A stretch of 64,000 bases of DNA from NCBI GenBank assembly GCA_001770935.1, contig MESI01000005.1, forward strand, positions 1-64,000, in the 5' to 3' direction. The DNA is from Burkholderiales bacterium RIFCSPLOWO2_12_FULL_61_40 (lineage in GTDB: Bacteria > Pseudomonadota > Gammaproteobacteria > Burkholderiales > Burkholderiaceae_C). This document shows, one piece after another, positions 30,648 through 62,906 of this stretch. The stretch's first letter is position 1, and each line of letters opens with the position of its first letter. A program made the position numbers and the translations under genes. A model generated the notes under the pieces. That model saw only the letters and a program-made list of their open reading frames with translations. It searched no databases and was not told the origin of the DNA.

Positions 30648-30681
30648 GGCCATCGAAACGACAGGCCTTCCGGACCCAAGG

Positions 30682-33358
<2,677 letters not shown>

Positions 33359-33359
33359 G

Positions 33360-33418
33360 TGTAGGTTCTCACAATTGCCGAGAACTTTCTCACCAAACGA
33401 GAATTTAGTAGGTTCTCA
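33360..33418. repeat. Cluster of TTCTCA/GAGAA repeats at the island edge
   Basis: TTCTCA occurs at 33366, 33387 and 33413, and GAGAA at 33380 and 33399, so direct and inverted copies alternate. The block starts with TGTAGG two bases after the gyrB stop. It could be a transposon end with transposase sites, or operator sites for the sigma-54 activator downstream, or a weak gyrB terminator. Confidence 0.45.
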
Positions 33419-33548
33419 GTTTTACTGTAAGAATTTGTAGACGTGCGCAAAGTTTTGCCGCTCAGATAAGGTGCGCCTTCGTCACAAGAACCCGATGAAT
33501 TTTTGGTAAAAATTCTTACATCAACGTCCATTTGTTTATTATTCAACG

Positions 33549-35081
33549 GTGGCAAATAAACAATGGCTAATATCCTGGATTGGCAACGCTGATCACATCG
33601 CATCTGAAGATCCCTCCGGTTCTGGTAGCGGTCCAATTGCGACTGCTCTGCTCGGAGGTGTACGCTACGACCGAATCTGCCTGCTGACCAATTACGGGCA
33701 TGAGCGGGGCGTTACCTTTTGTGCTTGGCTTGAAAAGAAGTGCGGCTACCTAGATAGCGCCGTCGATTTGCAAGAGATCGATCTGCTTAGTCCCATTCAC
33801 TACGCGTCGATTTACAACGAGGTCAGCAAACACCTCAAGAATTTGGGGTTGCCGCATGACGATGTTGAACTGACTTTCCACCTCAGTCCAGGCACTCCAG
33901 CCATGGTGGCGATCTGGATCATGCTGGCGAAGACGCGTTTTCCCGCAAAGTTAATCCAAACTTCGCAGAAGGGCGGACTCGAATCCGTAGACTTTCCATT
34001 TGATCTCGCTAACGACTTTCTGCCCGAGTTTCTCCAGCGTAGCGGCGAGCGAATCGACCGCCTAATTCAAGGCCCTACAGAGACCGCTCCGCATTTCAGC
34101 AAAATCGTTCACCGTAGTGAATCCGTCAAAAAGCAGATCCACTTGGCTCAGCGAATCGCTTTGCATGACGTTCCCGTGCTGATCCTGGGCGAAACGGGTA
34201 CCGGCAAAGAACTCTTTGCCGAGGCGATCAGGGCATCTAGCGAACGGGCCGACAAGCCATTCATCACTGTTAATTGTGGAGCTATTGCGCCCGAGTTGGC
34301 CAATTCGGAACTGTTTGGTCACGTCAAGGGGGCCTTTACCGGTGCCGCGAGCCATCGCAAGGGCCACTTCCAAGAGGCACACGGTGGTACGCTGTTTCTC
34401 GATGAAGTGGGGGACCTTCCGCTGGAGACACAGGTTCGTCTGCTCCGGGCACTGCAGGTGAAGGAAGTTACGCCTCTTGGTGACTCAAAACCCATCAAGG
34501 TTGATGTTCGCGTCATTGCGGCGACACATCGCGATCTTGCTGCCGATGTAGCCACAGGTCACTTCCGTGAAGACTTGTTCCACCGCCTTGCGGTTGGCAT
34601 TCTCCGGTTACCGCCCTTACGAGAGCGAGAAGGTGACATTGATTTGCTGGTTGATACGTTCCTTAACCAAATCAACGCTGACGCGAGAGGTAAACCGGAG
34701 GCTCAAGATAAGAGACTTTCCATTGATGCAAGAAAAATTCTTATCGCTTACGCTTGGCCTGGCAACATTCGCGAGTTGTATCACTCGCTCCTTCGGGCCG
34801 CGATCTGGTCAACCGGTGCAGAGATTCAGTCTGATGATGTTCGATCATCCTTGTTGCAAATCCAACGGCTAAGCGACAACGTCATGGGGCGACCGCTTTC
34901 ACAAGGGTTTGATCTACAAGAACTTTTGGACGAAATATCACGAGACTACGTGAATAGAGCACTCAAGCAAACTGCTGATCGGAGGACTTTGGCCGCAAAG
35001 CTTCTGGGGTTTGCCAATCACCAGACATTGGGCAATTGGATTAAGCGTTTGGGTCTAGTAGACCGTCAACTTGATTCTTGA
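33549..35081 (+). CDS. Sigma-54 enhancer-binding activator with RtcR-like CARF sensor
   Basis: A 510-residue protein. Residues 1-155 resemble the CARF sensor of RtcR: LLTNYGHERG, then TFHLSPGTPAMVAIWIMLAKTRFPAKLIQTS. Residues 175-410 are an AAA+ domain with Walker A GETGTGKE, the sigma-54-contacting GAFTGA loop and Walker B GGTLFLDEVG. The C-terminus is a Fis-like helix-turn-helix ending QTLGNWIKRLG. CARF domains bind cyclic oligonucleotides or RNA ends with 2',3'-cyclic phosphates. No rtcBA genes are adjacent. The stop codon abuts an IS630 remnant. The only sigma-54 promoter I found in the island is upstream of Thoeris. Confidence 0.85.
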   Translation: MANKQWLISWIGNADHIASEDPSGSGSGPIATALLGGVRYDRICLLTNYGHERGVTFCAWLEKKCGYLDSAVDLQEIDLLSPIHYASIYNEVSKHLKNLGLPHDDVELTFHLSPGTPAMVAIWIMLAKTRFPAKLIQTSQKGGLESVDFPFDLANDFLPEFLQRSGERIDRLIQGPTETAPHFSKIVHRSESVKKQIHLAQRIALHDVPVLILGETGTGKELFAEAIRASSERADKPFITVNCGAIAPELANSELFGHVKGAFTGAASHRKGHFQEAHGGTLFLDEVGDLPLETQVRLLRALQVKEVTPLGDSKPIKVDVRVIAATHRDLAADVATGHFREDLFHRLAVGILRLPPLREREGDIDLLVDTFLNQINADARGKPEAQDKRLSIDARKILIAYAWPGNIRELYHSLLRAAIWSTGAEIQSDDVRSSLLQIQRLSDNVMGRPLSQGFDLQELLDEISRDYVNRALKQTADRRTLAAKLLGFANHQTLGNWIKRLGLVDRQLDS

Positions 35082-35545
35082 TCAATCTTGGGATAGGCCC
35101 AGGCCATTTTTTTGGCGCGCCTTGCTCAGGTTGAATTGCCAACGCACCGGCTTGCCCTCGACGTTCCTCTGCGAGCAGATGGCATCGAGTTCGCGTTGCA
35201 ATTGCCCTTTGTCCGCGATCCGCTTCTTGAACACCGTCCGGCCCAATACCGCAAATTCCAGTTCGGCGATGTTGAGCCATGACCCATGCTTGGGCGTGTG
35301 TTTGATCTCGATTTTTTGGGCCAGTCGGCGTGCCTCCTCAGGCGGGAATGTGGCGTAAAGCGCGCCCTTGGTGTGGGTGTTGAGGTTGTCGCACACCAGC
35401 GTGATCCTCTTCGCTTGGGGAAACATCTGGTCGAGTTCACTGCACACGCCAGCGAAATCGGCCTTTTTGCGATGCTCTGTCACCACCAGGCACTTGCGCA
35501 GGCCCGCCGCGGGCTGGCTGATCATCATCACTTCCGCCAGACCGC
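35082..35545 (-). pseudogene. IS630-family transposase, C-terminal remnant
   Basis: The minus strand encodes the second half of an IS630 DDE transposase: AGLRKCLVVTEHRKKADFA, VCDNLNTHTKGALYATFPP with the second Asp, and KHTPKHGSWLNIAELEFAVL with the final Glu. The first half is found at 35928-36374, separated by an IS66 fragment, and about 100 residues between them are missing. Its stop codon touches the stop of the sigma-54 activator, so no terminal repeat is left on this side. Confidence 0.85.
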
Positions 35546-35931
35546 AGCGTAAGCGGCTGCCCGAGGGCAGTGCCACGGCCAAGGCGATTGACTACAGTTT
35601 GAACCGCTGGCAAGCGCTTACAAATTACTTGGCCGATGGCAACGTCCAAATTGATAACAACCATCTTGAGAATCTGATTCGGCCATGGGCAATGGGGCGC
35701 CCGGCTTGGTTGTTCGCAGGCAGTGAGCTGGCCGGCCAACGTGCTGCCGTCGTGATGAGCTTGCTGCAGTCAGCAAAGCTGCATGGTCATGATCCGTGGG
35801 CCTATCTGCGGGACGTGCTGACAAGATTGCCAACGCACATGAACAGCCGCATCGAGGAACTGCTGCCACACCGCTGGCAACCGCAAACCTGAATTGGCGG
35901 CACGGTCAAGGTGCCGTGCCCAGCCGGTTAC
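35546..35931 (+). mobile_element. Truncated IS66 element (right part)
   Basis: The segment holds the last part of an IS66 TnpC (see 35551-35892) and ends with CCGGTTAC, which read from the other strand starts GTAACCGG, like IS66 termini beginning GTAA. The left end, tnpA, tnpB and most of tnpC are absent. It interrupts the IS630 transposase gene. Confidence 0.65.
35551..35892 (+). pseudogene. IS66 transposase TnpC, C-terminal fragment
   Basis: About 113 codons reading KAIDYSLNRWQALTNYLADG, then QIDNNHLENLIRPWAMGRPAWLFAGS, then VLTRLPTHMNSRIEELLPHRW. This is the end of the IS66 DDE domain, including the final Glu region (NHLEN). No start codon or upstream transposase sequence belongs to it; the open frame upstream is antisense IS630. 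Confidence 0.88.
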
Positions 35932-36374
35932 CCTTCATGGCTGTAGGAGGAAGCGAAACCGAGTTCCACAATCTTGGTACCCAGCAATCGCAGCGTCCAA
36001 TGGTCGTGCCCATCAGGCGCCTTCGAGCAGGCAATGGCCGTGATCATGGCGGCTTGCTTGGCATCAAGCTTGGGTTTGGCGCCTGGGCGAGGCAGTTCGC
36101 TCAATGCGTCCTCCAGGCCGCCTTCGGTAAAACGTTTTCGGATTTTCAAAACCGTCGGCAACGTAACGTCCAAGGCTGAGCAGATATCCTGATGGGAGTG
36201 GCCATTGCCGAGTTTGGCCAATATACGTGCGCGGGTGATCACGCGAGCGCTGTTGACGCCCTTATGGATGATGGCAAATAGGTGCTCTTGCTCTTCATCG
36301 GTGAGTTCCACGTCATGGTTGGGTGCGTTTTGGGGCATGCCTGTCTCCTCATGGTTGGAATAATTTCCGAACAT
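35928..36374 (-). pseudogene. IS630-family transposase, N-terminal remnant
   Basis: The minus strand encodes the DNA-binding half of an IS630 transposase: ELTDEEQEHLFAIIHKG, then HSHQDICSALDVTLPTVLKIRKRFTEGGLEDAL (helix-turn-helix) and DHWTLRLLGTKIVELGFASSYSHE, where it breaks at the IS66 end. An internal ATG at 36338 is the likely original start. It is the same element as 35082-35545, and the flanking bases 35932-35939 may be the IS66 target site. Confidence 0.85.
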
Positions 36375-36662
36375 CAGAGACCATAAATTGGCCCGTCAGC
36401 CAAGCATTTGCGTTTTATTAACAAATCAAGTTGCCTGTCTACTAGAAGCGGAACAACAAAAAAACTAAAAGTAGAGGTGGCACGGCTTTCGCAAAGTAGT
36501 CCACGCTGAGCAAATCACTCATCAAGCCAGAGCATCTGCTCCCGGCCTTTGCAGTGGGCGAGCTTCACCGATACGGCCGTGAAGTCCAGCCGCCAGCAGA
36601 CTCAAAAAAGCCGCAGCCTCCTGATTCGCAGCCGGATGTTGTGGCCCGCACCCGGCAATCGT
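36375..36662. other. Gap between IS630 remnant and brxL
   Basis: The first 100 bp are AT-rich and featureless. Bases 36517-36660 are GC-rich and open on the plus strand (HLLPAFAVGELHRYGREV), but I cannot match this to a family. It lies downstream of the BREX operon and may be debris of a lost gene. No clear terminator was seen. Confidence 0.4.
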
Positions 36663-41287: not shown

Positions 41288-43092
41288 TGGCTGTTCCTTA
41301 GGCTCAGGATGGACTTCACCTCTTTGAGCATTTTGTCTGTTCGTGCCGTCATCGCGGCTTCATTCCAGTCGTTGCGCGGAGCCAAATCAGCGTTCAGATA
41401 AAGCCCATTGCGATACCCGATGAAGTCAGCCTTGTCGTTCTGGCGGTCACGTTTCTTCATGAATTCCATCGTGCCGAGTTTGGAGTTGTAGCCACTCAGG
41501 GTGAGGTTGCCGAGTTGGTGGGCGCAGCGCTGGCGTATAGCGTCAGCAGTGTGCATGTTGTTGAGCTCCAGCATAGCCACCCACCCTGGTCCAAGGTTTT
41601 CTGTCTTTGGCAAGATGTGCTCAACCGTGAAAACGGGGCGATCATTTGCATCGTGTGCCCACAAATCGCGCTTGGTCTCGCGGGTTTGGTGCACTTCCTC
41701 CAACTTGCACAACATGAAACGAGTGGCCTCGTAGTTGTCGAGGTAAACATCGCCCTTCAGGCGCGCATCACACACATCCTCGGGGGCCGCACGCGCCAGC
41801 AACCAATCACTGGCGTGCTTCAAAAATTCTTCCAGCTCGGTAACTGACTGCGAGCGCATCTCTTGCAACAGCGCACCAATCAACTCCACGAACATCGGAT
41901 CGAGCTCACGGGTTGGCGGCATATCGGTAAGGTTCCGCCAGAAGAACCACTTGGTGAGCAGCGCAGCCATTTGACTCAGCGCCTCGCTTTCATCCCACGT
42001 CTGACTGCGGACAACCTGGCTCACCCATAGCAAAAACGCGTAAGCGGGTGCGGCACCGAGGCGCTGCAGGTCTTGCAAGTTGGCCGCAGTGCCCTCGCTC
42101 CATTGATCTTTGGCCGCCGCCGGATTGAGCAGCGCCGAATAGGTCTTGCCCTGGGATTGCAGGGCATGGAAAAGCCATACCGGGCGCTTGCGCAACAAGG
42201 TGTCGTAAATGGTGATGAGGTTGGAGCGAGTCGCCCTTGAACAGCCTTTGACCTCCACACGTTTGAGGTACTTGAACACGTTGTACAGCTGCCGCAAGAA
42301 GCGCTCTTGCACTGACGGATCAGGCAGCAAGTCGATCAAGTCTTTCCACTCATCAAACGCCCGGTCAATACCGTAGTCAGGACGTTTGTCGAGCTCTGCC
42401 AGCAAGTTGTTCTTGATGATGTCGATGGCCGACAGCGGGATGCCCCGGTTGTTGATCGACTCAAACAACATGAAAGCGTCTGAGTGGCTTTGAACCTCAA
42501 TCTTGACCAGGATGGCGGACTTCAGCTTTTCCAACAGCGCCATGGCCTGAGCAATAGTTAATGGCAGAAGGCGTTCTCGGAAATACTTATAGGCCTTCGC
42601 GATACGGCGATTCCCGAAGTTGGCCAGCCCTTTGGGCGCGGTGACCAGCTTTGGAAAAAGCTCGTTCAGAATCCGCTGGAAGTCAGCTTTGTTCTGCATC
42701 TGCTCGCTGGGCTCAAACCGCCACTGACTGTTCGCCTTAATGAAGATGCGGTTCTTCAGGTTCACCATCTCGACGTTGAAGTCGTCATCCGGATCTTGGT
42801 TCGACTTCAGCTTGTCGTAAAGCGCGCAGAACAGCAGGCTGATGGTGGTAAATCGCTGCTGGCCATCGATCAACTCCAGCTTGCTACCCGCCATCGAGTC
42901 CTTCTGGCCGTTGACACAGATAATCGATCCCAAGAAGTGACCAGAAGGCGACTCGTCCAGATCTGTGAACAGCGCGTCCCAATTCGACCAACCCCAAACG
43001 TACTCGCGCTGGTACTTGGGGATGAAGAAAGAAGTCGCCCCATCAGGGTTGAAGTAAAAACTAACGGGGAATGCTTTGACATCCTGGATCAT
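41284..43092 (-). CDS. DUF262-DUF1524 protein, BrxU/GmrSD-like type IV restriction enzyme
   Basis: A 602-residue protein. The N-terminal DUF262 domain has IPKYQREYVWGW and the nucleotide-binding LELIDGQQRFTTI near residue 75. The C-terminal DUF1524 domain carries the His-Asn nuclease block VEHILPK...HQLGNLTLSGYNSKLG near residues 490-550. This is the architecture of GmrSD and BrxU, which cut DNA with modified cytosines. It lies inside the BREX operon between pglX and pglZ, with 4-nt overlaps on both sides, so it is a true operon member and not cargo nearby. BrxU is known beside BREX in Escherichia fergusonii. Confidence 0.85.
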   Translation of the reverse strand: MIQDVKAFPVSFYFNPDGATSFFIPKYQREYVWGWSNWDALFTDLDESPSGHFLGSIICVNGQKDSMAGSKLELIDGQQRFTTISLLFCALYDKLKSNQDPDDDFNVEMVNLKNRIFIKANSQWRFEPSEQMQNKADFQRILNELFPKLVTAPKGLANFGNRRIAKAYKYFRERLLPLTIAQAMALLEKLKSAILVKIEVQSHSDAFMLFESINNRGIPLSAIDIIKNNLLAELDKRPDYGIDRAFDEWKDLIDLLPDPSVQERFLRQLYNVFKYLKRVEVKGCSRATRSNLITIYDTLLRKRPVWLFHALQSQGKTYSALLNPAAAKDQWSEGTAANLQDLQRLGAAPAYAFLLWVSQVVRSQTWDESEALSQMAALLTKWFFWRNLTDMPPTRELDPMFVELIGALLQEMRSQSVTELEEFLKHASDWLLARAAPEDVCDARLKGDVYLDNYEATRFMLCKLEEVHQTRETKRDLWAHDANDRPVFTVEHILPKTENLGPGWVAMLELNNMHTADAIRQRCAHQLGNLTLSGYNSKLGTMEFMKKRDRQNDKADFIGYRNGLYLNADLAPRNDWNEAAMTARTDKMLKEVKSILSLRNSQ

Positions 43093-44999
43093 TCCTCACC
43101 CCCGGCCTTCGTTTTCCTACGAGTTTTCTTCGGTGCCGCTTCGGGCTCGATGTACAGGTCTTCCAGCCCATGGGCAATAGCCAGGCTCTTGTCGGTCTTG
43201 CACTTCTCGCGCACGCGCTCGGGCCAGTAGGCAATGGCCAGGTGGGCCCAGTCGTAGTCTCCTTTTTGCAGTTTCGTCCAGGTTTCGTTCAACACTTTTT
43301 GCCAAGGCTTGTGGCGGAACAGCGCGCGCAGCGGCGCGGAGGTGATCTGCACGCCGTCATCGTGGTTGGGCTGGTAGGTGTGGGCCAGGACCTGCAAGGT
43401 GTCGCGCATGTCGCTCAGTTCCTGCGCCAAGGTCTGCAGGGCCTCAAACTGCTTTTCGTCGTCGCGTGTGCGGGCGTTGCCCTTGCTGCGCAGCCCAGCC
43501 ACGTCATCGCCCACCTGCTTGAGCTTGGGCTCCACAAAATCGTTGATGGCGGTGTACAGCGTCTGGTGGCTGAGGCTGGGGTAGTACACCCACAGCGTGT
43601 AGCCGCCTGACACGGTGCTCAACGGCCAATAGATCGGCGCTTTGCGCCGACTCTTGGAATAGCGCTGCAGGTGGAAAGGGAAGAAGTCCTTCTGCAGCCA
43701 GCGGCGAAGGTCTGCGGGTACAGGCGAGTCAACACGCACCAGCACTTCTTCGGCCAGGTGCGCGAGGTCGTGCAGGTGGCCGGCATCGTCCACCAGAATG
43801 CCCGCGTGGGGGTGGAAAGGCGCCGCGCCATCGGGCAGCATGCCGGGACTCTTAGGGGGCAGCGCGTCGAAGGGCTCTGGCTCTGGCGGTGCGGCGCGCT
43901 CGCCGGTGGCCAGGCGCCAGTCGAAGCGGCCGAAGGCCACACCCACGGCCCAGGACAGCAGGCCATCGGTATGGTCGACCGGTACCGCACTATCTTCGTC
44001 GTCGCCTTCGGCTACGATGACGGCTTCTTCATTGCTGTCGCTGATTGCTCCCTGGCTGGCTTGGACAATCGCGCGGTCGGCCTCGCTGAACCCGTAGAGA
44101 TCGAAGGCGATGGCGTCGATTTTGGTCTGGATGTGGGCCAGCTCAGCTCCGATGGCAGGCGGGTCGTAGTGGCCAGCGCGATTGCGCAGCAGGGTGGGTA
44201 GTGTGAACGCGTGCGACACCTCCGCAGTGGTGTCGAGAATTCGCTTTTTCGACCACATCACTCGCGCGTGATCTGAAAGCTGGTTGAGTTGCGCACCTGT
44301 AACGGTGGGCCAAGGCATTAGTTGAAGAATCCCAACTATGAATTCGGGATAGCCGAAACGACCCAGCGCGGATTTAAAGAGATAGTCAAATGCAGCGCTG
44401 TTGAAGATTCCGAGAATTCCGAGGTGATCCCCGTTTTCGGTGTGCGCCGTGTATCCCCGCACAGAAAAGATGCATTCAGCAGGCAATGCTTGTGGTGAGA
44501 ACTTGTGCGCCCGCAAGGGCCATGTAATAGCTGGTCTGAAGTAGTATTCCTCGTTGTAAACCCGCTTCCCTGCATTCCCATGCTGGGCAATTACCGTCTG
44601 CTTTAGCTCAGCCCCGGCCTCTTTCCAGTTCAGTACCAGCGAAAGGTCACTGTAGTATGGTGAATGGCTTCCTCCTTTGGCAAAGCTGGGGAATTCATGC
44701 ACTGATCCGCGAGTGGAATCTATCTCCCACCACGTTCTCAGGAATCGGAAATCATCGGCGGTTGCCAAACCTACTTTTGCGGTCCTACCGGAGGACTCAA
44801 AGGAAGGGAGGCGTTGGAATGTCTCGCGGACTGCTCTGCTGACCCAGTAGCTAAACGGAGTACCGGGTACCGCCTGCAACTCTTTCGGCTCAATCTCAAA
44901 CAATCGCTCGTCGCTTTGCCCCGCACGTAAGTCCATGCACGTCGCCATCAATGCCGAGGCCTTGTCTTTAACACCCAGTATCCGCAGGAAGGTGGTCAT
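43089..44999 (-). CDS. pglX: PglX second half (specificity/C-terminal part), separate cistron
   Basis: A 636-residue protein with no methyltransferase motif of its own. It begins MTTFLRILGVKDKASAL and contains PFSYWVSRAVRETFQ, FGYPEFIVGILQLMPWP and a C-terminal helical part ending KKTRRKTKAGGEE. In single-chain PglX the methyltransferase core is followed by just such a target-recognition and C-terminal region. The ATG overlaps the stop of the core gene by 4 nt. The two products add up to about 1,270 residues, near the size of a full PglX. It may be a real two-subunit enzyme or the result of one frameshift. Confidence 0.8.
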   Translation of the reverse strand: MTTFLRILGVKDKASALMATCMDLRAGQSDERLFEIEPKELQAVPGTPFSYWVSRAVRETFQRLPSFESSGRTAKVGLATADDFRFLRTWWEIDSTRGSVHEFPSFAKGGSHSPYYSDLSLVLNWKEAGAELKQTVIAQHGNAGKRVYNEEYYFRPAITWPLRAHKFSPQALPAECIFSVRGYTAHTENGDHLGILGIFNSAAFDYLFKSALGRFGYPEFIVGILQLMPWPTVTGAQLNQLSDHARVMWSKKRILDTTAEVSHAFTLPTLLRNRAGHYDPPAIGAELAHIQTKIDAIAFDLYGFSEADRAIVQASQGAISDSNEEAVIVAEGDDEDSAVPVDHTDGLLSWAVGVAFGRFDWRLATGERAAPPEPEPFDALPPKSPGMLPDGAAPFHPHAGILVDDAGHLHDLAHLAEEVLVRVDSPVPADLRRWLQKDFFPFHLQRYSKSRRKAPIYWPLSTVSGGYTLWVYYPSLSHQTLYTAINDFVEPKLKQVGDDVAGLRSKGNARTRDDEKQFEALQTLAQELSDMRDTLQVLAHTYQPNHDDGVQITSAPLRALFRHKPWQKVLNETWTKLQKGDYDWAHLAIAYWPERVREKCKTDKSLAIAHGLEDLYIEPEAAPKKTRRKTKAGGEE

Positions 45000-46900
45000 G
45001 ACTGTTTCTCCAACACGTACGCGGCAGCTTCCACCATCGCGTCGTCCATTACGCCAAAGCCCAGGTCGGCCATCACTTCAGGGTGAGCGATGCCCAGCAC
45101 GATCTCCTCTCGCCACCGTTGGAAGCTGGACAGAAAGAAGCAAGTTCGCGATGTAATCGCTCCGATCCTTCCGCCCGTCCGTAGCAACTCCAAACCACGC
45201 TCAACCATGATTGCGAGCAGATCGTTCCTGCTTCGCGGGTATGCCTGGGTGAGCAGGTCCTTGGTGTTCGCGGCGAGCGCCCCAAACGGCGGATTCATCA
45301 CCACCACGTCGAACACTTCGCGGCACAAATCAATGAGTCGGAGTCCTTCTAAGGCATCCTGCGCAAACAGTCGCCCTTGGTATGTGGCTTTGGCTGCATT
45401 CGCAAACTCGACGAGCCCAGTTCGCAGCCTCGTCTCGGCCTGGCGCCACTGCTCCGCATCCGTGTCCCTGAACAAACTGCCGTGCTCGCCAAACACTGCG
45501 CGCACCAGTCGAGGCAGATCGCGCTCCATCCGCAGCAAGACGCCCAACTCAGGCACGCCCTTCAGCAGTTGCAGGGTCTTTATGAACAGCTCCGCATCCA
45601 GGACGTCAAGCTGGGCAGCAAATTGCTCACGCAGTTCCTTCTCAGCCGGGGGCGCGGTGGCGGCGATGACGTTGCCACGCCCCACAACCGGCCGATCCTT
45701 GGCCTTGACGCCATCATCGTGCCAAGCGCGCTGCGCGCGCAGCCACAACGCCAGCGAGGCAATCTGTGCCGCGCGCGAGTCAATGTCCACGCCGTAGATG
45801 TTGTGCTCAACGAGCATGCGCGGCACGTCGCGCAGATAGGCCTGCTGGTCAGCATAGGTTTGGCACAGCGGTAGCATGCCAGCGCCGGGCTGGGTACTTA
45901 CGTCCAGACTGCCTGCACCATGGGTTTGCTCCCAATCCCAGGCCTCACGATATATGACCAGGAACAGGTCAAACGCATACAGGCCAAAGTGCATCGAGCC
46001 GCAGGCCGGGTCCAACAGCTTCAGGGTACGCGGGTCACGCAGGCGCAGCGCGGCCGCTGGCTGCTCGTCGGGCTTGACTAGCAGGTATTGGCAGCGCTCG
46101 CGCAGGCTGGTGTGCCCGCCGGTGGCGTTGAACCACAGGCGGCCCAGGGTGTTGTCCACTAAAAACTCCACCACGTAGCGCGGGGTGAAAAACTGGTTGC
46201 GCACCGCCAATTCCCGGCTGTTGCGCGGCGCCTGGCTGGCGTCGCGCATGGCTTTGCGCTCTTCTTTGGAGTTGAAGTATTGGTAGATCCAGCCGATGGT
46301 TTCGTCCTCAGCCCACAGCGGCGCAATCTCGGGGTGGTTCAGCTCGTCTAGCAAGCTACGCAGCGCGGTCTCTCGCGGGAACAGCAAACCGCTGGCCGCA
46401 AAGCGATCGAACAGGCCTTGGAGCCCCTGCGCCAGTTCGTCAAACAAGCTGAATAGGTAGGCTTGGTAGGCCTGCCCGGTCTCACCCAGCGCTGTGCCAG
46501 CCAAGCGCGCATAGCTTTGATAGCCTCGGGACTGGTAGCCCTTGCTAACCGATTCGAACAACTGGCCCCGGGCTTCCATCATCAGCAAAGCGGCCATGCG
46601 ATTGAGCACAGTGAAGGCCTGCTCGCGCACCATGCGGTCAATGACGTCGATGCGGTGCGCGGTATCGTCGGCATCCGCGCCGAGGTAGTGACCCAACACC
46701 TGACGCAGCACCTCGGCAGTGTGGCGTTGACGGTCGTCCAAATGGGTTAGGCGCGTGATAGGCGTGACATCGCCCGAATTGGGGTCCAGGCCATAGACCT
46801 GCTGTAGCTGGATGCTGAAGTCTTCGCTCAACAAGGCGCGGCAGGCATTGACCAGCTTTTGCAGGCGGCTTCGGGTGCTTTGGTCGAACGCCATGCTCAC
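44996..46900 (-). CDS. pglX: PglX first half, adenine-N6 DNA methyltransferase core
   Basis: A 634-residue protein. After a helical N-terminal region (residues 1-230) it has the methyltransferase motifs LLDPACGSMHFGLYAFDLF (motif I) and VVMNPPFGAL (motif IV, the N6-adenine signature), then GRIGAITSRTCFF and MDDAMVEAAAYVLEKQ, where it stops. PglX marks host DNA at a non-palindromic site in BREX. The start is GTG at 46900 in a 4-nt overlap with brxC; an ATG at 46894 is the alternative. The chain continues in the next cistron. Confidence 0.9.
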   Translation of the reverse strand: MSMAFDQSTRSRLQKLVNACRALLSEDFSIQLQQVYGLDPNSGDVTPITRLTHLDDRQRHTAEVLRQVLGHYLGADADDTAHRIDVIDRMVREQAFTVLNRMAALLMMEARGQLFESVSKGYQSRGYQSYARLAGTALGETGQAYQAYLFSLFDELAQGLQGLFDRFAASGLLFPRETALRSLLDELNHPEIAPLWAEDETIGWIYQYFNSKEERKAMRDASQAPRNSRELAVRNQFFTPRYVVEFLVDNTLGRLWFNATGGHTSLRERCQYLLVKPDEQPAAALRLRDPRTLKLLDPACGSMHFGLYAFDLFLVIYREAWDWEQTHGAGSLDVSTQPGAGMLPLCQTYADQQAYLRDVPRMLVEHNIYGVDIDSRAAQIASLALWLRAQRAWHDDGVKAKDRPVVGRGNVIAATAPPAEKELREQFAAQLDVLDAELFIKTLQLLKGVPELGVLLRMERDLPRLVRAVFGEHGSLFRDTDAEQWRQAETRLRTGLVEFANAAKATYQGRLFAQDALEGLRLIDLCREVFDVVVMNPPFGALAANTKDLLTQAYPRSRNDLLAIMVERGLELLRTGGRIGAITSRTCFFLSSFQRWREEIVLGIAHPEVMADLGFGVMDDAMVEAAAYVLEKQS

Positions 46901-52420: not shown

Positions 52421-52708
52421 TTATTTGGCCCTGGACAGTTCAGTTGCTCCATCGTCACCAGACGAAGGTGCAAGGTCTGGTGCTCCGTCTCCCTTCTCAC
52501 TTTGCCCCCCAGGTATGTACTCCAACAAGTCAGAGATCCGGCATTGGTAGTGCTTGCAGATCGCATTCAGCGTCTCAATGTCCAGCCGGCTTGTCGTCTC
52601 GTGATACAGCCCAGAACACGTGTTCCGCGCTAAGCCAGTCGACCTCATCAAGTCCGACAGCTTTTCCTTGTGTTCGCCCATCAATCGCGACAGGTGGATC
52701 CGAATCAT
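52421..52708 (-). CDS. XRE-family regulator heading the BREX operon
   Basis: A 95-residue protein whose first 70 residues form a Cro/CI-type helix-turn-helix domain (LSRLMGEHKEKLSDLMRSTGLARNTCSGLYHE, then LNAICKHYQCRISDLLEYIP). The tail is disordered and acidic. It is co-directional with brxE, 17 bp upstream, and is preceded by two inverted repeats sharing AGCTGATCA, so autorepression of the whole BREX operon is likely. It differs from the WYL-domain BrxR regulators known from other BREX loci. Confidence 0.88.
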   Translation of the reverse strand: MIRIHLSRLMGEHKEKLSDLMRSTGLARNTCSGLYHETTSRLDIETLNAICKHYQCRISDLLEYIPGGQSEKGDGAPDLAPSSGDDGATELSRAK

Positions 52709-52743
52709 AAGATGCCTCGTTGTAAAACAACAATAAGCTAAAC

Positions 52744-52769
52744 AAAATGATCGTGTAGCTGATCATTTT
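52744..52769. promoter_or_regulatory. Operator candidate 1 of the BREX promoter region
   Basis: AAAATGATC and GATCATTTT form a perfect 9-bp inverted repeat with an 8-bp spacer, 36 bp before the XRE start. It contains the half-site AGCTGATCA that is shared with the second repeat. Confidence 0.65.
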
Positions 52770-52789
52770 TGCCTACTAAAGTGTCAACA

Positions 52790-52810
52790 AGCTGATTGTG
52801 TTGATCAGCT
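52790..52810. promoter_or_regulatory. Operator candidate 2 of the BREX promoter region
   Basis: AGCTGAT-N7-ATCAGCT, perfect arms. Its right arm read in reverse is AGCTGATCA, as in candidate 1, 20 bp away. The pair looks like two sites for one dimeric regulator, most simply the XRE protein encoded alongside. Confidence 0.65.
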
Positions 52811-52821
52811 AAAGGCACATT

Positions 52822-53034
52822 ATGACCATCATGAGTGATCTCGAGGCAAAGCGAATGCCTCAAAACGACATTTCCATCGGCTGGGCAGCCGGGTTTTTCG
52901 ATGGCGACGGGTACACGTCAATCAGCAAGCAGCGAGTCAAAGACAGCAAAAACCTGACCTATCTACCGCCTGCGACTCTACATCGCCCAAACTGTAAGGA
53001 GACCCTGCTGCACGCTGCATTGACTGGCAACTGT
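52822..53034 (+). pseudogene. Decayed LAGLIDADG homing endonuclease fragment
   Basis: The frame opens at an ATG and reads ISIGWAAGFFDGDGYTSIS, with the GFFDGDG form of the LAGLIDADG helix. After KDSKN the homology moves to another frame (YRLRLYIAQ) and then back (NCKETLLH). This is explained by a 4-nt insertion after ACCTAT and the loss of one A in CAAAC. The frame stays open to 53112 by chance, but the C-terminal domain is missing. It lies between the BREX operators and the Thoeris promoter. Confidence 0.72.
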
Positions 53035-53151
53035 CGAGTTAAAAGCCAAGTATGGCCGTTATATTTTTTACATAAAGGTAATTTTTATTTCATACATTTG
53101 AATTTTTTATAAAAGAATTTTTGTAACCCATTGATTTCATTGAATTTCTTG

Positions 53152-53170
53152 TTTGGCACGTAATTCGCAA
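53152..53170 (+). promoter_or_regulatory. Sigma-54 promoter of the Thoeris operon
   Basis: TTTGGCACG-TAAT-TCGCAA: TGGCACG is an exact -24 element, GG and GC are spaced by exactly 10 bp, and TCGCA matches the -12 consensus TTGCW at all but one base. Transcription should start near 53180, about 75 nt before the thsB ATG. Activation would need an enhancer-binding protein; one is encoded in the same island at 33549-35081. Confidence 0.75.
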
Positions 53171-53181
53171 TCCTTAGTGCA

Positions 53182-53230
53182 GGCGATACGTGAGAGTGAT
53201 CGCCAATAACCACCGGGGCGAATCCGCCTC
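53182..53230 (+). ncRNA. Two-hairpin 5' leader of the Thoeris mRNA
   Basis: Hairpin 1 pairs GGCGAT (53182-53187) with ATCGCC (53199-53204) around an 11-nt loop. Hairpin 2 pairs GGGGCG (53215-53220) with CGCCTC (53225-53230), including one G-U pair, around AATC. Hairpin 1 would sit at the very 5' end of a transcript from the sigma-54 promoter. The ribosome site AAAGGA follows at 53240. It may be an mRNA leader element or a small structured RNA; no known family was recognised. Confidence 0.4.
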
Positions 53231-53254
53231 ACAGCAACGAAAGGATGTCAATCA

Positions 53255-53752
53255 ATGACGCGCAAAGTTTTCTACAGTTTTCACTACGTCCCTGACAACT
53301 GGCGTGTTTCGCAAGTGCGGAATATCGGCGCTATCGAGGACAACAAACCCGCCAAGGACAACGACTGGGAAACGGTCACCAAAGGTGGTGACAAAGCGAT
53401 TGAGAAATGGATCGCTGATCAAATGAGTGGACGCTCTTGTGCCGTGATATTGATTGGCGCCGGCACGGCTAATCGCAAGTGGATCAACCACGAAATTATC
53501 AGGGCTTGGAATGACAGCAAGGGCGTGGTTGGCGTCCACATTCACAATCTTAAAAACAGTGATGGCAAGACATCAGCTAAAGGTGTCAACCCATTTGAGT
53601 ACATCACGCACGGCGTAAGCGGCAAAAAGCTCTCGACCATTGTTAAGACCTACGATCCGCCAGGCCTGACAAGCACTGATATGTACAACCACATCAAGAA
53701 CAATCTCGAAAAGTGGATTGAAGAGGCAATCACCATTCGGGGCAAGAATTGA
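53255..53752 (+). CDS. thsB: Thoeris TIR protein ThsB
   Basis: A 165-residue protein of the TIR-like DUF1863 group: VFYSFHYVPDNWRVSQVRNIG, KAIEKWIADQMSGRSCAVILIGAGTANRKWINHEI with the catalytic Glu, and GVVGVHIHNLK. In Thoeris, ThsB senses phage infection and makes a cyclic ADP-ribose isomer from NAD+. It is followed by thsA with a TTGA overlap. A sigma-54 promoter lies upstream. Confidence 0.9.
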   Translation: MTRKVFYSFHYVPDNWRVSQVRNIGAIEDNKPAKDNDWETVTKGGDKAIEKWIADQMSGRSCAVILIGAGTANRKWINHEIIRAWNDSKGVVGVHIHNLKNSDGKTSAKGVNPFEYITHGVSGKKLSTIVKTYDPPGLTSTDMYNHIKNNLEKWIEEAITIRGKN

Positions 53753-55245
53753 GTACCGGAGCGTCCCAATGGACTGCGACCAAGGAGCAGCGTCGCTTCA
53801 TTGCAAGCTTTGGTGACAAAGCTATAAATGGCGAGGCTGCCCTCTTCGTTGGTGCCGGCGTATCAAGAAGCGCTGGATTTGTGGACTGGAAAGCCTTGCT
53901 TACAGATGTCGCTATCGAGCTCGATCTGGACATTGGTAAAGAACATGATTTGCTAGCTCTCGCTCAGTACCACGTCAATGGTCACGGGAGCCGCGGCGAA
54001 CTGAATCAACAGCTTCTTGATGCATTCATTCGGGACGCGGAGCGGACCGAGGTTCACGATGTCCTAGCTCGTCTTCCCATCGATACGGTGTGGACCACCA
54101 ACTATGACCGATTGCTGGAGAAAGCGTATGAGGAAAGCGGCCGAACGGTTGAGGTCAAGCTGTCGATCCAGAATCTCGCGCAAGCCCGCCGTGGCCGCGA
54201 TGTGACGATCTACAAGATGCACGGGTGCGTGACCCAGCCCCACGACGCTGTGCTCACTAAGCAGGATTATGAAATCTACGACCAATCACGCCGTTTGTTC
54301 ACAGACAGCCTAAAGGGCGACTTCATTGAGAAAACGCTCCTGTTTCTTGGCTTCAGTTTTTCCGATCCGAACGTCGAGCGCATTCTTGCAAAGGTGCGTG
54401 AGCAACTGGGACAGAATCAGCGAACGCACTATTGGATCACGCGTCGTCCACCGCAAACATGCCCGCAAGGGAAGCGCACCAAAGATGAAATGGAGTATGA
54501 GCGGCGAAAAGCAGCTTTGCAAAGCGACGATCTGAAACGGTATGGAATCCAGACGATCTGGGTCGACGAATACTTTGATATTCCCAAACTGCTGCTTGCC
54601 CTCGAAGCGTATGTCACCCGCAAAGGTGTATTCGTGGCTGGTGCTGCCCATGACCCCAGCCCTTTGGAATGGGACCAACTGAATGAACTGAGTCGAGCTC
54701 TCGGTACTAAGATCATCAAATCCGGATACAACTTGGTTTCCGGCTTTGGTATCGGGATTGCCGAACAGACCATTCTTGGAGCTTTTCGCGCGATATACGA
54801 AAGCGCTCAGCGTCAGCCGGCAGAACGTGTGCTCATCCGCCCCTTCCCCGGAAACGCACCTTTATCACGGCGTTCCGAGATATTTCGCCGCCATCGCGAA
54901 GACCTCATTTCACAGGTCGGGGCGCTGATAGTAGTTGGTGGCAATAAGCTGGCCGACAGCGGCGATGTAATTCTTTCTGCAGGAGTTCAGGAAGAAGTTC
55001 AAATCGCGCTCCAACTAGGCAAGCCTGTAATCCCGATTGGAAAAACGGGTCATGCTGCGGAAATGGTTTGGAAGGCCGCATGCATAGCGCCCGAACGTTA
55101 TTTGCCTGGAATTGATTGCACCGCGGAGCTTGAAATTTTAGGCAGCCCAATGTCAGGTACGAATGAACTCGTCGGCGCAGTAGTCAGCCTACTCGGTAAG
55201 GCTGAAAATATCGCATCGGCTCGGTGCCGAGATGTGAATAAGTGA
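53749..55245 (+). CDS. thsA: Thoeris effector ThsA (SIR2-SLOG NADase)
   Basis: A 498-residue protein. Residues 15-285 are a SIR2 domain: AALFVGAGVSRSAGF, then TVWTTNYDRLLEKAY with the Asn-Tyr-Asp, YKMHGCVTQP with the catalytic His, and LLFLGFSFSDPNV. Residues 300-490 are a SLOG domain with LVSGFGIGIAEQTI and ALIVVGGNKLADS, which binds the ThsB signal and releases NAD+ cleavage. The start is TTG at 53749 overlapping the thsB stop (TTGA). The gene is intact although an IS element begins five bases after its stop. Confidence 0.92.
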   Translation: MSTGASQWTATKEQRRFIASFGDKAINGEAALFVGAGVSRSAGFVDWKALLTDVAIELDLDIGKEHDLLALAQYHVNGHGSRGELNQQLLDAFIRDAERTEVHDVLARLPIDTVWTTNYDRLLEKAYEESGRTVEVKLSIQNLAQARRGRDVTIYKMHGCVTQPHDAVLTKQDYEIYDQSRRLFTDSLKGDFIEKTLLFLGFSFSDPNVERILAKVREQLGQNQRTHYWITRRPPQTCPQGKRTKDEMEYERRKAALQSDDLKRYGIQTIWVDEYFDIPKLLLALEAYVTRKGVFVAGAAHDPSPLEWDQLNELSRALGTKIIKSGYNLVSGFGIGIAEQTILGAFRAIYESAQRQPAERVLIRPFPGNAPLSRRSEIFRRHREDLISQVGALIVVGGNKLADSGDVILSAGVQEEVQIALQLGKPVIPIGKTGHAAEMVWKAACIAPERYLPGIDCTAELEILGSPMSGTNELVGAVVSLLGKAENIASARCRDVNK

Positions 55246-58128: not shown

Positions 58129-58776
58129 ATGAGAGTCAGAAAAGTTGTCACCCGAAGCGGCAAGCGCTTCCGCGGGAAATTCCCTTCCAGAAAACTAAAC
58201 CGCATGGTGCATTGGGAATCTCTTTTGGAACGGGATGCTATCTACCACTTTGAGTATCACCCGTTGGTCATTAGCTACCAGGAGCAACCCTCCATCGAAA
58301 TTTATTACGACGCCCTTGGTAAGCAGCACAGGTACTTTCCAGATTTCAGACTGAACCTCATGGATGGCAGCGAAATTTATATTGAAGTGAAGCCAGCACG
58401 ATTTTTGGCAACTAAAAAAGTGCAGGAAAAGTTACAGGCAGTCGCTACACGGTTCGAAGAGCAAGCGCGCCAATTCCGGGTGATGACAGAAGTTGAAATT
58501 CGTCGGCAGCCCTTGTTTGCAAACCTGATACAAATTCACAAAAGTAGCAAACGTGCAGCTCAGATTGAGCCAGACACGCAAATGATAAAAACATTGTCGG
58601 GTGGTCCACGTTGGACACTTTCAGATCTGTGTAAAAAACTGCTAGGTATCGGTCAAGTCTTACGCCTGGTGCGCTCGAAACATTTGCGGGTAAATCTTGA
58701 AGCCAGTCTGTCAGATGACACCGAGGTCTGGCTGGCAGATGCACATGGAGGCTGCAATGGTTCGTTTTACATTTAA
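58129..58776 (+). CDS. tnsA: Tn7-like transposase endonuclease TnsA
   Basis: A 215-residue protein with a type-II-restriction-like nuclease fold. WESLLERDAIYHFEYHPLVISYQEQP carries the first Glu, HRYFPDFRL the Asp and SEIYIEVKPA the Glu-Val-Lys, the catalytic triad that nicks the 5' ends in cut-and-paste Tn7 transposition. A C-terminal winged-helix part follows. It ends 20 nt inside tnsB. The length is shorter than E. coli TnsA (273). Confidence 0.9.
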   Translation: MRVRKVVTRSGKRFRGKFPSRKLNRMVHWESLLERDAIYHFEYHPLVISYQEQPSIEIYYDALGKQHRYFPDFRLNLMDGSEIYIEVKPARFLATKKVQEKLQAVATRFEEQARQFRVMTEVEIRRQPLFANLIQIHKSSKRAAQIEPDTQMIKTLSGGPRWTLSDLCKKLLGIGQVLRLVRSKHLRVNLEASLSDDTEVWLADAHGGCNGSFYI

Positions 58777-60751
58777 AAAAGGGCTTCGTTTCCTTCAGAC
58801 ATCCAAAATCTTCACATTGCTACGCAGGCTCGCCAATGGCAATTTTCAACTTGAAGATCAGGCTGGGGAAATCAGTAGCCTGACGGAAGCCGAGATCCAT
58901 TCACGATGGATCTCAGGGCAGTGGCAAATTGATGAAGAAAGCTTGGGACCATCAAGCAATGTCTTTTATTTCACCACCCCACAGGACCTGAAATCCCTTC
59001 CACCTCAGGATCAACTGGATGTAAAGCGAAGGATGGAGTACCTGCGCAAAATCAAGGAGATGTTTGAGAATGAGGGACTTCGGCTGGTTTCTTCCCGCGA
59101 TAAATTGGTGCCAAAAATCGCGTTAGTCGCTGCAGAACTTGGCGACAGTTCACCTCCGTCGCCCAACACCCTTTGGAAATGGTGGCGAAAATTCGCGCCG
59201 ACTAAATGCATCACCAAATTAGTCATCGCCCGCCGCGCGGGGAGGCGATACGATTCCACTCAACGAAGTGTCTTCGATGAAGCAGTAGCCGAGGTCTTTC
59301 TCACACCACAACAGTTGCCAAGGAAGGCCGTGGTTGAGGCAGTTCAACGAAAAATCAGGCGCATCAATCAAAGTGTGCGCGAGAGTGAACGCGTACGCGA
59401 ACCCAGCCAGGCAACGATTTACCGCTGGCTTGACATGCTGTATTACCAGGTCGTCGCGAATGCCCGGCAAGGCCGGGCAGCGACATCCCGAGAGCTACGA
59501 CGCGCCATCGGTCGGGTCAAGGTTAGCCAAATCCTGGAACGCATCGAACTTGATCACACGCCACTGGACATTGTGGTTATCTGTATGGTCACGCGCCTAA
59601 TTCTGGGACGCCCATGGCTGACCTTGGCGATAGATCGGTACAGCCGGATGATTACTGGTTTTTACATCAGTTTCCACGCACCATCCTCAACCTCGGTACT
59701 GTACTGCCTGCGCATGATGATCATGCCCAAGGAACACATTCTTGCCCGCTTTCCAGATGTGCAGGGACCTTGGCCGGCGCGTGGCCTGCCCGACACGATC
59801 GTGACCGACAACGGCATGGAACTCCATTCACATGCGGTCGAAGCCGTCAGTTTGGAAATGGGGATCAACCTTCATTATTGTGGCGTGGCGCATCCTGAAA
59901 TGAAGGGAGCCATCGAACGGATGATCGGCACTGTCAACCGTGGCTTGATTCATACCTTGCCTGGCACAACGTTTTCCAATATCGAACAACGTGGTGATTA
60001 CGATTCGGAGGGGCACGCAGCCATTGACATCGAGGTACTGACCCATCTGTTGGTCAAGTGGATTGCGGACCAGTACCACAAGACACCACACCGCGGCCTG
60101 GGCGGTCGAACCCCGCTTTCTGTCTGGCAAAACGGTGAGAAAACAGCCACCATCGAACTTCCCGCGTTTCCACGACAACTTGAAACAATCATAGGGCTCG
60201 AAGCCACTCGCACACTATTCCATTATGGGCTGGAATTCGGCAACCTACGATACAACTCGCCCACGCTACAGGCGCTCCGTGAGCCTGGTGGAGGGACACG
60301 AGAATTGCAATTGCGTGCATTTGAGCACGATGTTGGCTACATCGCAGTATTTCACCCCACTTTGGAAGAGTTTATTGATGTACCGGCGGTCAATCAGGAG
60401 TATTCGGCTGGGGTGAACCGATATGTTCATCAGCTTGTGTGCGCTGAGGTTCGGCTGCGGTTTGGAGACTCATGGACGAATGATCAATTGCTCAATGTCA
60501 AGGGTGAGATCCAAGCCATTGTTGACGAAGCGGTCCGGGGGAAGAAGGCGGGGAATCGGAAGAAGGGAGCTTCAATGGCCCTCAGCGACAGTGAACAAAT
60601 CATCGATGGCACAGATACCAGTGCTCTCAAGCGCGCATGCCAACAGTCAGATCCAACGCCTAAACCCCGCACGCCAATCGCCCCTGGAATGGACGATGAA
60701 TTGCCTGAATTTCACCAGTCTAAACGCATCAATGAGGGTCACGCGGCATGA
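58757..60751 (+). CDS. tnsB: Tn7-like DDE transposase TnsB
   Basis: A 664-residue retroviral-integrase-type transposase. N-terminal helix-turn-helix domains bind the element ends. The catalytic core has ELDHTPLDIVVI (first Asp), TIVTDNGMELHS (second Asp) and KGAIERMIGTVNRGL (Glu). The C-terminal Mu-type beta-barrel and TnsC-contact tail follow. The ATG at 58757 is preceded by GGAG at six bases; a frame start at 58697 lies inside tnsA. It overlaps tnsC by 4 nt. Confidence 0.93.
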   Translation: MVRFTFKKGLRFLQTSKIFTLLRRLANGNFQLEDQAGEISSLTEAEIHSRWISGQWQIDEESLGPSSNVFYFTTPQDLKSLPPQDQLDVKRRMEYLRKIKEMFENEGLRLVSSRDKLVPKIALVAAELGDSSPPSPNTLWKWWRKFAPTKCITKLVIARRAGRRYDSTQRSVFDEAVAEVFLTPQQLPRKAVVEAVQRKIRRINQSVRESERVREPSQATIYRWLDMLYYQVVANARQGRAATSRELRRAIGRVKVSQILERIELDHTPLDIVVICMVTRLILGRPWLTLAIDRYSRMITGFYISFHAPSSTSVLYCLRMMIMPKEHILARFPDVQGPWPARGLPDTIVTDNGMELHSHAVEAVSLEMGINLHYCGVAHPEMKGAIERMIGTVNRGLIHTLPGTTFSNIEQRGDYDSEGHAAIDIEVLTHLLVKWIADQYHKTPHRGLGGRTPLSVWQNGEKTATIELPAFPRQLETIIGLEATRTLFHYGLEFGNLRYNSPTLQALREPGGGTRELQLRAFEHDVGYIAVFHPTLEEFIDVPAVNQEYSAGVNRYVHQLVCAEVRLRFGDSWTNDQLLNVKGEIQAIVDEAVRGKKAGNRKKGASMALSDSEQIIDGTDTSALKRACQQSDPTPKPRTPIAPGMDDELPEFHQSKRINEGHAA

Positions 60752-61812
60752 GTGCACATGACAAACTAAATGAACTTCTAAGACTTGGCATTTCAGACGC
60801 TGACAAGCCTGATATTTCCCAGGATTTTCTCCACTTCACATTACGGAAAAAGATAATCGAACACCCGCGTTTCACTGCGGCCATCCGAGAAATCGCCCGC
60901 CTTCATCAACGTGGGCAGCGGTCCGGAATCGCAGAGGGAATGCTTTTGGTGGCGCAAACCGGCTCAGGGAAGACAACAGCCTTGGAATTTTATGAACGCA
61001 GATTCCCTCGCATTGTTGTTCGCGAGACTTTGAAAATTCCAGTTCTGCGGGTCGACACCCCAGAATCACCCACAGTGAAGACCCTTGCCGAGGCGATCCT
61101 GCTGGCAATGGGTGATCCCGGGGCAGCGAAGGGGACTGCCTCAGAAAAGACCGTCAGGATCATTCACTATTGCAAGCAGTGTGGAGTGGAGCTACTCCTC
61201 ATAGACGAATTCCAGCACTTCATTGATGGCAATAAGCCATCTGAATCGAAAAGAGTAACGGACTGGCTCAAAAATTTAATCAATAAGGTTTGCATTCCGG
61301 TCATTCTGGCCGGACTGCCGCGGGCCATCGCGGTGGTAAACAGCAATCCGCAACTGCGCCGAAGGTTTGGGGCACCTTTCTACATGGCGCCATTCGGGTT
61401 CGACACGTCACTTGAGCAAAGGGAATTCCGTGGGGTCCTGAAGGGCATCCAATTGGCTCTGCCTGTCCCGTGTGTCGACTTGTTTGAAGCCAACCTTGCC
61501 CAGAGGTTCTTTTACGCGACCCACGGCCTTTTGGACTATGTAGTCAAGATTGTTGACGACGCGGTATCCCGTGGCGGCAGCGGCCCGAGTGGGCAGGTGA
61601 CTCAGCCCGACCTCGCACTCGCATTTAAGCGTTCTGTTTGGTTCGATGCTCCAGACATGCTCAACCCCTTCATGGAGAAAGCAACGCTGCGCTTATTAAA
61701 CAGGCATCTCGAACCGTTCGACATATGGGATGAGATTACGCAGTACACATCGCCGTCTGGTTACCGAAAAAAAGGAAAAGCGGGCACCAGCCAAACGAAA
61801 GCATTGCTATGA
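60748..61812 (+). CDS. tnsC: Tn7-like AAA+ regulator TnsC (TniB type)
   Basis: A 354-residue ATPase that links target selection to the transposase. Walker A is VAQTGSGKTTAL near residue 70 and Walker B is LLLIDEFQHF near residue 152; LAGLPRAIAVVNSNPQLRRRF is the sensor/arginine region. The size is closer to TniB and CAST TnsC than to the 555-residue E. coli TnsC. It overlaps tnsB and tniQ by 4 nt each. Confidence 0.92.
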   Translation: MSAHDKLNELLRLGISDADKPDISQDFLHFTLRKKIIEHPRFTAAIREIARLHQRGQRSGIAEGMLLVAQTGSGKTTALEFYERRFPRIVVRETLKIPVLRVDTPESPTVKTLAEAILLAMGDPGAAKGTASEKTVRIIHYCKQCGVELLLIDEFQHFIDGNKPSESKRVTDWLKNLINKVCIPVILAGLPRAIAVVNSNPQLRRRFGAPFYMAPFGFDTSLEQREFRGVLKGIQLALPVPCVDLFEANLAQRFFYATHGLLDYVVKIVDDAVSRGGSGPSGQVTQPDLALAFKRSVWFDAPDMLNPFMEKATLRLLNRHLEPFDIWDEITQYTSPSGYRKKGKAGTSQTKALL

Positions 61813-62906
61813 AAAGTCAATTACTCATACGCCCGACCCTGGCTGAGGATGAAAGTTTGCGCGGGTACATCGCTCGCGCAGCGGAGCGAAACCTGTCACC
61901 GGCGCTGTTCAAGCCCATGCTCTCATCGTTGTCAGCCGCGACAGCTGCGATACCCGCAGTCAGCGGCCTGACAGGTAGCAACCAATCCGACCTCTGTGCA
62001 AGGGGGGCAGTTGTCGGCAACGACTGGTCGCACCGCCCCGGTTTGCAATTTGGCAGCATCATTCTGTCCAGCAATCAAGTGCGGTTTCGACAGCGCATGG
62101 TGTGCCCACTCTGTCTTTCGGAAGATGGCATCTCTCGCTGTACCTGGGAGCTGCGGCGATACGATGTTTGCTGCCACCATGGATGCCATCTAATTGATAC
62201 ATGCGGTGCATGTCAGCGACCACTCTCCTGGAATTCTCCCAGTTGCCAGACTTGTGTCTGTGGCTTTCAGATTGCTAAGTCCCATATGGGGAAAGCGGCG
62301 CCAAGCCGTCAAAAATTCTGCCAATTGCTCGCCGACGCGATGCGGAAAACACTGAACAATCAAAGCCAAAATCTGCCTGGAAACATCAGCCAGATTCCCG
62401 CAATTGATTGGATGCTTCTTCTAATTTCATTCGCAGAAGCACTTATTCTTCCGCACTTCTTTCAGTTACATCTGACCTCGCCACGGCCAATTGGAGCAGG
62501 GAAGCAAGATGAACTGATCGCAACCATGTTGGGCGACAAGCCATATCGGGATCATCTCCGAGAGACGTTATTTCTGCATGCGGCGAAAGACCCCGTAACC
62601 ATGGGAAAGGCGTTGCAACCGGGGCTGTTATCTGCGGATCTCCAACTGTATTTTGGACCTTGCTTAGAGGACCTATTTTTTCATACCTGCCTATGGAAAT
62701 TGAACTGGGAGGTAGACATTCCGGCTGACGTCGAAGCGCCCGAAGTGGTCGATATTCCAAAGGCTGCGGTGGTCAAATTTACCTCAACACTCGACCACAA
62801 GGGACGCCTGCGATCAAGGCAAAGGGCAAGTGATCCAGGTGGCATTACATGGCGTCCGAGCTACAAGCCCCCTCTTCCACCCATAACGCCAACGAAACTT
62901 TATTGA
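61809..62906 (+). CDS. tniQ: TniQ-family target-selection protein 1
   Basis: A 365-residue protein. The N-terminal TniQ domain opens RPTLAEDESLRGYIARAAERN and has the zinc-binding sets CPLC, CCHHGCHLIDTCGAC and CQTC. The C-terminal half has no recognised DNA-binding domain. TniQ/TnsD proteins choose the target site and recruit TnsC. Translation is coupled to tnsC upstream and to a second TniQ-like gene downstream (TGATG). Confidence 0.88.
   Translation: MKSQLLIRPTLAEDESLRGYIARAAERNLSPALFKPMLSSLSAATAAIPAVSGLTGSNQSDLCARGAVVGNDWSHRPGLQFGSIILSSNQVRFRQRMVCPLCLSEDGISRCTWELRRYDVCCHHGCHLIDTCGACQRPLSWNSPSCQTCVCGFQIAKSHMGKAAPSRQKFCQLLADAMRKTLNNQSQNLPGNISQIPAIDWMLLLISFAEALILPHFFQLHLTSPRPIGAGKQDELIATMLGDKPYRDHLRETLFLHAAKDPVTMGKALQPGLLSADLQLYFGPCLEDLFFHTCLWKLNWEVDIPADVEAPEVVDIPKAAVVKFTSTLDHKGRLRSRQRASDPGGITWRPSYKPPLPPITPTKLY

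Follow-up and report, generated by a model that had tools for sequence, protein, structure and literature searches.

The Thoeris genes of the 64,000-nucleotide stretch analysed here (the window) are preceded by what is very probably a full sigma-54 promoter of the enhancer-dependent kind, under the control of RtcR_PspF2, the CARF-domain activator of the same island. The predicted wiring, from RtcR_PspF2 through sigma-54 to Thoeris, is well supported by comparison, since a cassette of promoter elements stands before thsB only where the regulator gene is present and since its dyad is shared with the regulator's own promoter. A circuit of this kind, in which the promoter would stay silent until a phage- or damage-made nucleotide or RNA end activates the CARF protein, had been put forward in the original prediction; it is its wiring that the comparison bears out, and the likely regulator-binding region is narrowed to positions 53058-53091. 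In the mechanism we propose, the CARF domain would bind a ligand, upon which the AAA+ ring would assemble at the dyad pair; DNA bending by IHF would bring this ring within reach of the sigma-54 polymerase, which would open the thsB promoter and allow thsBA to be transcribed; ThsB would then make its nucleotide signal and ThsA would destroy NAD.

Table 1 Positions of the Thoeris genes, the regulator gene and the associated DNA elements in the window.
Feature	Position	Strand	Basis or remark
Dyad before rtcR, GTAAAAATTCTTAC	33506..33519	.	Exact GTAAN6TTAC match; candidate autoregulatory operator
Weaker partner dyad	33526-33539		20 bp on from the rtcR dyad
RtcR_PspF2 regulator (CARF, sigma-54-activating AAA+, HTH)	33549..35081	+	PADLOC RtcR_PspF2--CARF_AAA_HTH, E 5.1e-191
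IS630-like insertion (DDE_3 and HTH genes, TA at both ends)	35056..36444	-	Replaces the regulator's last 7 residues
Left-over element, TGGCACGGCTTTCGCA	36478..36493	+	Between rtcR and hsdR in relatives; identical 16-mer in 4 relatives
Upstream dyad 1, GTTATATTTTTTAC	53058..53071	.	GTAAN6TTAC type
Upstream dyad 2, GTAATTTTTATTTC	53078..53091	.	GTAAN6TTAC type; 20 bp from dyad 1
IHF consensus, TAACCCATTGATT	53124..53136	+	Exact match to YAANNNNTTGATW
Sigma-54 -24/-12 element, TGGCACGTAATTCGCA	53154..53169	+	GG-N10-GC type
thsB, TIR protein of Thoeris	53255..53752	+	ThsB_TIR PF08937, E 1.1e-25; PADLOC ThsB
thsA, SIR2-STALD NADase (predicted)	53749..55245	+	SIR2_2, E 4.6e-34; STALD, E 3.6e-48; PADLOC ThsA

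Elements of the thsB promoter

Judged by sequence, the window's thsB-thsA pair is a normal, genuine Thoeris pair: a ThsB TIR protein stands beside a ThsA with SIR2 and STALD domains, the two reading frames overlap, and ThsA shares with solved ThsA its TTNYD and KMHG stretches, which we take to be catalytic. Upstream, the coordinates confirm the predicted -24 element TGGCACG, which begins at 53154, with its GG (53155-53156) and GC (53167-53168) 10 nt apart and the GC lying 87 nt upstream of the thsB ATG (53255). The element differs by one mismatch from TGGCACGNNNNTTGCW, the sigma-54 promoter consensus (TGGCACG-N4-TTGCW-like), so that its description as near-consensus holds, and it proves further to belong to a larger cassette. 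The two strands of the 5.0-Mb genome hold 88 sites with one mismatch or none (2 exact, 86 with one), three of them within the window. When the 300-bp region before thsB was dinucleotide-shuffled 3000 times, an equally good site arose in 0.1% of the shuffles. The genome encodes rpoN, with the sigma-54 core-binding domain PF04963 above its cut-off (E 2.6e-46); what is expected of a sigma-54 promoter is present here, namely the GG-N10-GC element, a candidate activator site upstream with an IHF consensus between, and rpoN in the genome. Another one-mismatch sigma-54-like site lies at 14529-14544, about 100 bp upstream of where an ammonium-transporter gene appears to begin, and serves as an internal positive control, ammonium-transporter genes being a classical sigma-54 target.

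From 5' to 3', the cassette consists of two tandem GTAAN6TTAC dyads, an IHF consensus, for whose form we take YAANNNNTTGATW, and the -24/-12 element, with 17 nt between the IHF consensus and TGGC in the window. Most cassettes have paired dyads with a separation of about 20 bp, at roughly -97 and -78 relative to TGGC, and TTGATT, GG and GC are invariant across 10 aligned cassette promoters; taken by itself, the pattern from TTGATT to TGGC-N9-GC occurs 36 times in the genome. The dyad is also found upstream of rtcR, which suggests that RtcR_PspF2 may control its own gene as well. As the dyad consensus had first been taken from the window's rtcR promoter, we rebuilt the model from the rtcR promoters of 11 relatives, with the window excluded and without G770, G772 and G181, whose rtcR loci have no dyad with two or fewer mismatches. 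Among tandem pairs in the 64 kb, this model ranks the window's rtcR promoter first (19.5) and the thsB promoter second (18.4). Shuffling gave P <=0.0015 for the tandem pair in eight of nine cassette promoters; the ninth, that of G771, has a shifted pair and gave 0.029.

It is highly improbable that the motif is a chance or vestigial one, with constitutive thsBA expression that is driven by a sigma-70 promoter or is due to read-through. AT-rich upstream DNA does favour loose matches, loosely mismatched dyads by themselves gave no information in such DNA, and single dyads are weak alone (best P 0.03); against this stand the joint conservation of the elements at fixed spacing, the controls and a held-out case, described below. 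A scan of 52700-53300 found no sigma-70-like site, a result that says little, since 0.9 such sites are expected by chance.

thsB copies with and without the regulator gene nearby

Conservation of the motif in close homologues had been set beforehand as a test of the prediction, and the motif passed it. Wherever thsB lies near an RtcR_PspF2 gene, in five of five copies, GG-N10-GC stands 71-104 bp upstream of the start codon, with the exact YAANNNNTTGATW IHF consensus another 17-18 bp upstream; dyads are clear at four of these loci and degenerate at one (G771). Neither the sigma-54 nor the IHF element was found in the 300 bp upstream of any of 20 control thsB copies from 18 genomes, of which one has only 67 bp upstream; five have thsA before them and two are second copies, and as these seven are not first genes, no promoter need stand there. 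The best composite score (see below) anywhere across the 18 control loci was 12. The CARF domain had no match in the 18 control genomes, and the same query matched 15 of the 16 regulator genomes. Control thsB copies are at most 65% identical, and the linked copies may form one clade (support 75/67).

These data also bear on whether the sigma-54 promoter might be driven by another enhancer-binding protein, with RtcR_PspF2 as mere island company. Other activators are available, with at least seven sigma-54 activator matches in the genome, but it is the dyad of the rtcR promoter that stands in tandem before thsB, and thsB in the 18 genomes without a CARF match lacks the elements even though other activators are common in the family. 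We hold this alternative to be quite improbable, and control by RtcR_PspF2 is the reading we follow.

ThsA was found in 4 of the 17 regulator genomes searched (66-80% identity), always sharing contig and direction with rtcR. Not all of the related loci are complete. Polaromonas 39-63-25 (G773) has a thsA fragment from residue 46, and thsB and the cassette are absent; a 669-aa frame there (L090:8131-10140) has an island-ATPase-like start and a thsA end, apparently a deletion fusion. The locus in G771 looks decayed by its sequence: thsB is present (77%), but a ThsA match was not found, RtcR reads GAFTSA and hsdR is split. The -12 elements are poor in G777 and G778. Gene order in Limnohabitans (G693, identical with G779) is rtcR, hsdR, hsdM, hsdS, an ATPase gene, a 319-aa gene, a GHKL gene, thsB, thsA and gyrB.

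The regulator and its original setting

The regulator matches the RtcR_PspF2 profile over its full length, through the CARF, AAA+ and HTH regions, and its AAA+ domain matches Sigma54_activat (E 1.5e-67). Walker A, GAFTGA and Walker B are present, which we take to be the motifs for sigma-54 activation, and the C-terminal HTH region is intact up to NHQTLGNWIKRLGL. It falls short of canonical RtcR as defined by Pfam PF06956, with a CARF domain at 22.7 bits against a cut-off of 23.1. The N-terminal domain alone is predicted to adopt a CARF fold (mean pLDDT 84.1), with Csm6, Cdn1 and Can2 as best matches. Relatives of the CARF domain were not found in viral contigs. When the RtcR_PspF2 profile was run on 200 genomes of the family, scoring seven candidates per genome, the CARF-covering matches among those listed came from G181, G173 and the window's genome. 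A CARF-domain scan of genome contigs led to 16 loci, with 15 of 16 genomes matched again; the 16 loci that we inspected comprise those of 15 CARF-scan genomes and G181.

The original prediction had described this gene as an orphan RtcR-like CARF/sigma-54 activator. The activator part stands, given its profile match (Table 1), and the orphan part does not: in 13 of the 16 related loci hsdR follows rtcR directly, then hsdM and usually a recognisable hsdS, all sharing its direction to the extent that the contigs cover them, so that the window's regulator was not an orphan to begin with. Families were assigned at a single locus (G767) and transferred to the others by tblastn. As for the rest, G774 has a phosphatase-kinase module rather than hsdR after rtcR, while G775 and G776 have a broken or short rtcR and no labelled hsdR.

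The comparison indicates that the window has lost its type I restriction operon and that BREX is in its place. A left-over element identical to that between rtcR and hsdR in four relatives lies 9 nt past the former rtcR stop, the insertion discounted; the insertion, which we read as IS630-like from its DDE_3 and HTH genes and TA ends, separates it from rtcR. No hsdR remnant was found in the stretch 36461-37000, where an inverted BREX operon lies. Within this operon, pglX (43089-46900) is broken into two reading frames that overlap, one for each half of the PglX profile, and a GmrSD-type restriction gene (PF03235, PF07510; 41284-43092) lies between pglX and pglZ.

These changes could mean that the circuit is ancestral but dead here, the insertion having damaged the regulator and the original operon being gone. 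The element does replace the regulator's last residues, and no trace of hsdR was found where it would be expected; however, the three activator motifs are intact, as is the C-terminal region to the point named above, tails vary among the relatives' regulators, the rtcR dyad is undamaged, and no promoter has a better composite score than that of thsB. A dead circuit is, in our judgement, rather unlikely, and we continue with the reading that RtcR_PspF2 would still control thsB.

In 14 aligned loci, one of them from Azotobacter, TGGCA and TCGC of the rtcR-hsdR element are invariant. None of 13 such elements has an IHF site or dyads at the cassette spacing, which rules out that it acts just like the thsB element, and one scheme does not cover the island. 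The hsdR promoter, if the element is one, would work differently. Across the 14 aligned loci the element overlaps an inverted repeat that extends to the region of the hsdR start, and 1 of its 11 predicted pairs has changes on both sides. It is pure speculation that a read-through RNA would fold at this repeat and that an RNA begun at the element could not.

The cassette in other islands, known systems and surroundings

A composite score for the cassette was applied to 980 candidates in 732 kb, with both strands counted. Eight sites scored 3-7, with the next at 10, and the window's thsB promoter was the best. Four of the eight are thsB promoters (the window, G777, G778 and G779), two precede a phosphatase-kinase-helicase module (G774, G767) and two a DUF2130 gene, identified by Pfam in G766 and by sequence likeness in G765; the thsB promoter of G771 scored 11. 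A 488-kb control gave a score of 9 once and then 11; it takes in positions 1-20000 of the window (L079), from the same contig, as well as sites chosen for their sigma-54 likeness, so that it is not random DNA. Seven controls with shifted offsets gave no site at <=7. The dyad positions used in the score were fixed after inspection of eight promoters, G765 and pPNAP01 being previously unseen. As the held-out case, pPNAP01, a plasmid of Polaromonas naphthalenivorans, scores 5, before DUF4258, VWA, PP2C, kinase and AAA genes. In total, the cassette lies upstream of non-Thoeris modules in five related islands. A module of VWA, PP2C, kinase and AAA-helicase genes stands behind the cassette at L105:16690-23386 and L087:10989-17756, and presumably resembles TerY-P modules. 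Within the stretches read, no cassette was seen near two distant plasmid regulators (41% and 38% CARF-domain identity), one of which precedes the same kind of kinase module. Control of BREX by the same means was rejected, as no composite site at <=7 faces BREX on either strand of the window.

As the cassette of relatives precedes other modules, Thoeris would be one member of an island regulon. RtcR_PspF2 is more likely than not an island-level master switch, with Thoeris as a transcriptionally gated second layer that was kept when BREX replaced the restriction module. One CARF-gated activator would then run interchangeable modules because these carry a portable cassette; they would include Thoeris, the VWA-phosphatase-kinase-helicase set and the DUF2130 module, with type I restriction reached by a variant route. 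The conserved layout, with the same sensor gene nearby, suggests that one sensor switches on several defence modules of the island. Accounts of Thoeris usually give its nucleotide signal as the sole control; if the proposed circuit is true, a CARF-sensed sigma-54 promoter would be a second gate, and the NADase would be made only after another signal. The 20 control copies of thsB show no sigma-54 or IHF element in the 300 bp upstream.

A close known parallel is RtcR/rtcBA of E. coli and Salmonella, likewise with a CARF-AAA-HTH activator; the E. coli rtcBA promoter has an upstream activating sequence (UAS), an IHF site and a -24/-12 element (PMC9650030). For rtcBA, the ligand of RtcR is given in a further study as tRNA 5' halves with a 2',3'-cyclic phosphate (PMC7790460). 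The target there is RNA repair, whereas here it is predicted to be Thoeris, and the window's CARF domain lies under the Pfam RtcR cut-off. RtcR-like CARF activators near restriction systems have been proposed to act through sigma-54 (Makarova et al. 2014, PMC4012209), and the likeness extends to sigma-54 activators of downstream defence genes, with type I restriction genes following the regulator in our relatives; the passages concerned contain neither promoter sites nor Thoeris, whereas here a promoter cassette recurs. In RtcR-CoCoNuT systems an RtcR-like gene likewise heads defence genes, forming the 5' end of superoperons that contain type I restriction, BREX or Druantia III (PMC11090510). 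These differ in that CoCoNuT genes were not identified here and that our cassettes stand inside the island; Thoeris has 0 occurrences in the main text of that paper. Our search of mostly open-access literature found no paper joining Thoeris with RtcR or with an enhancer-binding protein. Within that literature, the recurring cassette and the targeting of Thoeris appear to be new, the kind of regulator being known, and a published guess on RtcR-like proteins running defence islands becomes a testable regulon with named candidate sites.

In the window, gyrB adjoins the island on the rtcR side. The rtcR-Thoeris island stands beside dnaA-dnaN-gyrB both here (28003-33549) and, in opposite orientation, in Limnohabitans (L077, L080; contig C15 of G693), and these genes were beside the island in none of the other loci examined; this hints at an insertion hotspot. 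A short frame at 52822-53112 has a GFFDGDGY stretch and looks by eye like a LAGLIDADG endonuclease, with no Pfam match. On the right side of the island, 58129-62906 holds Tn7-like transposition genes: TnsA-like, rve-like (under the cut-off), TniB and TniQ.
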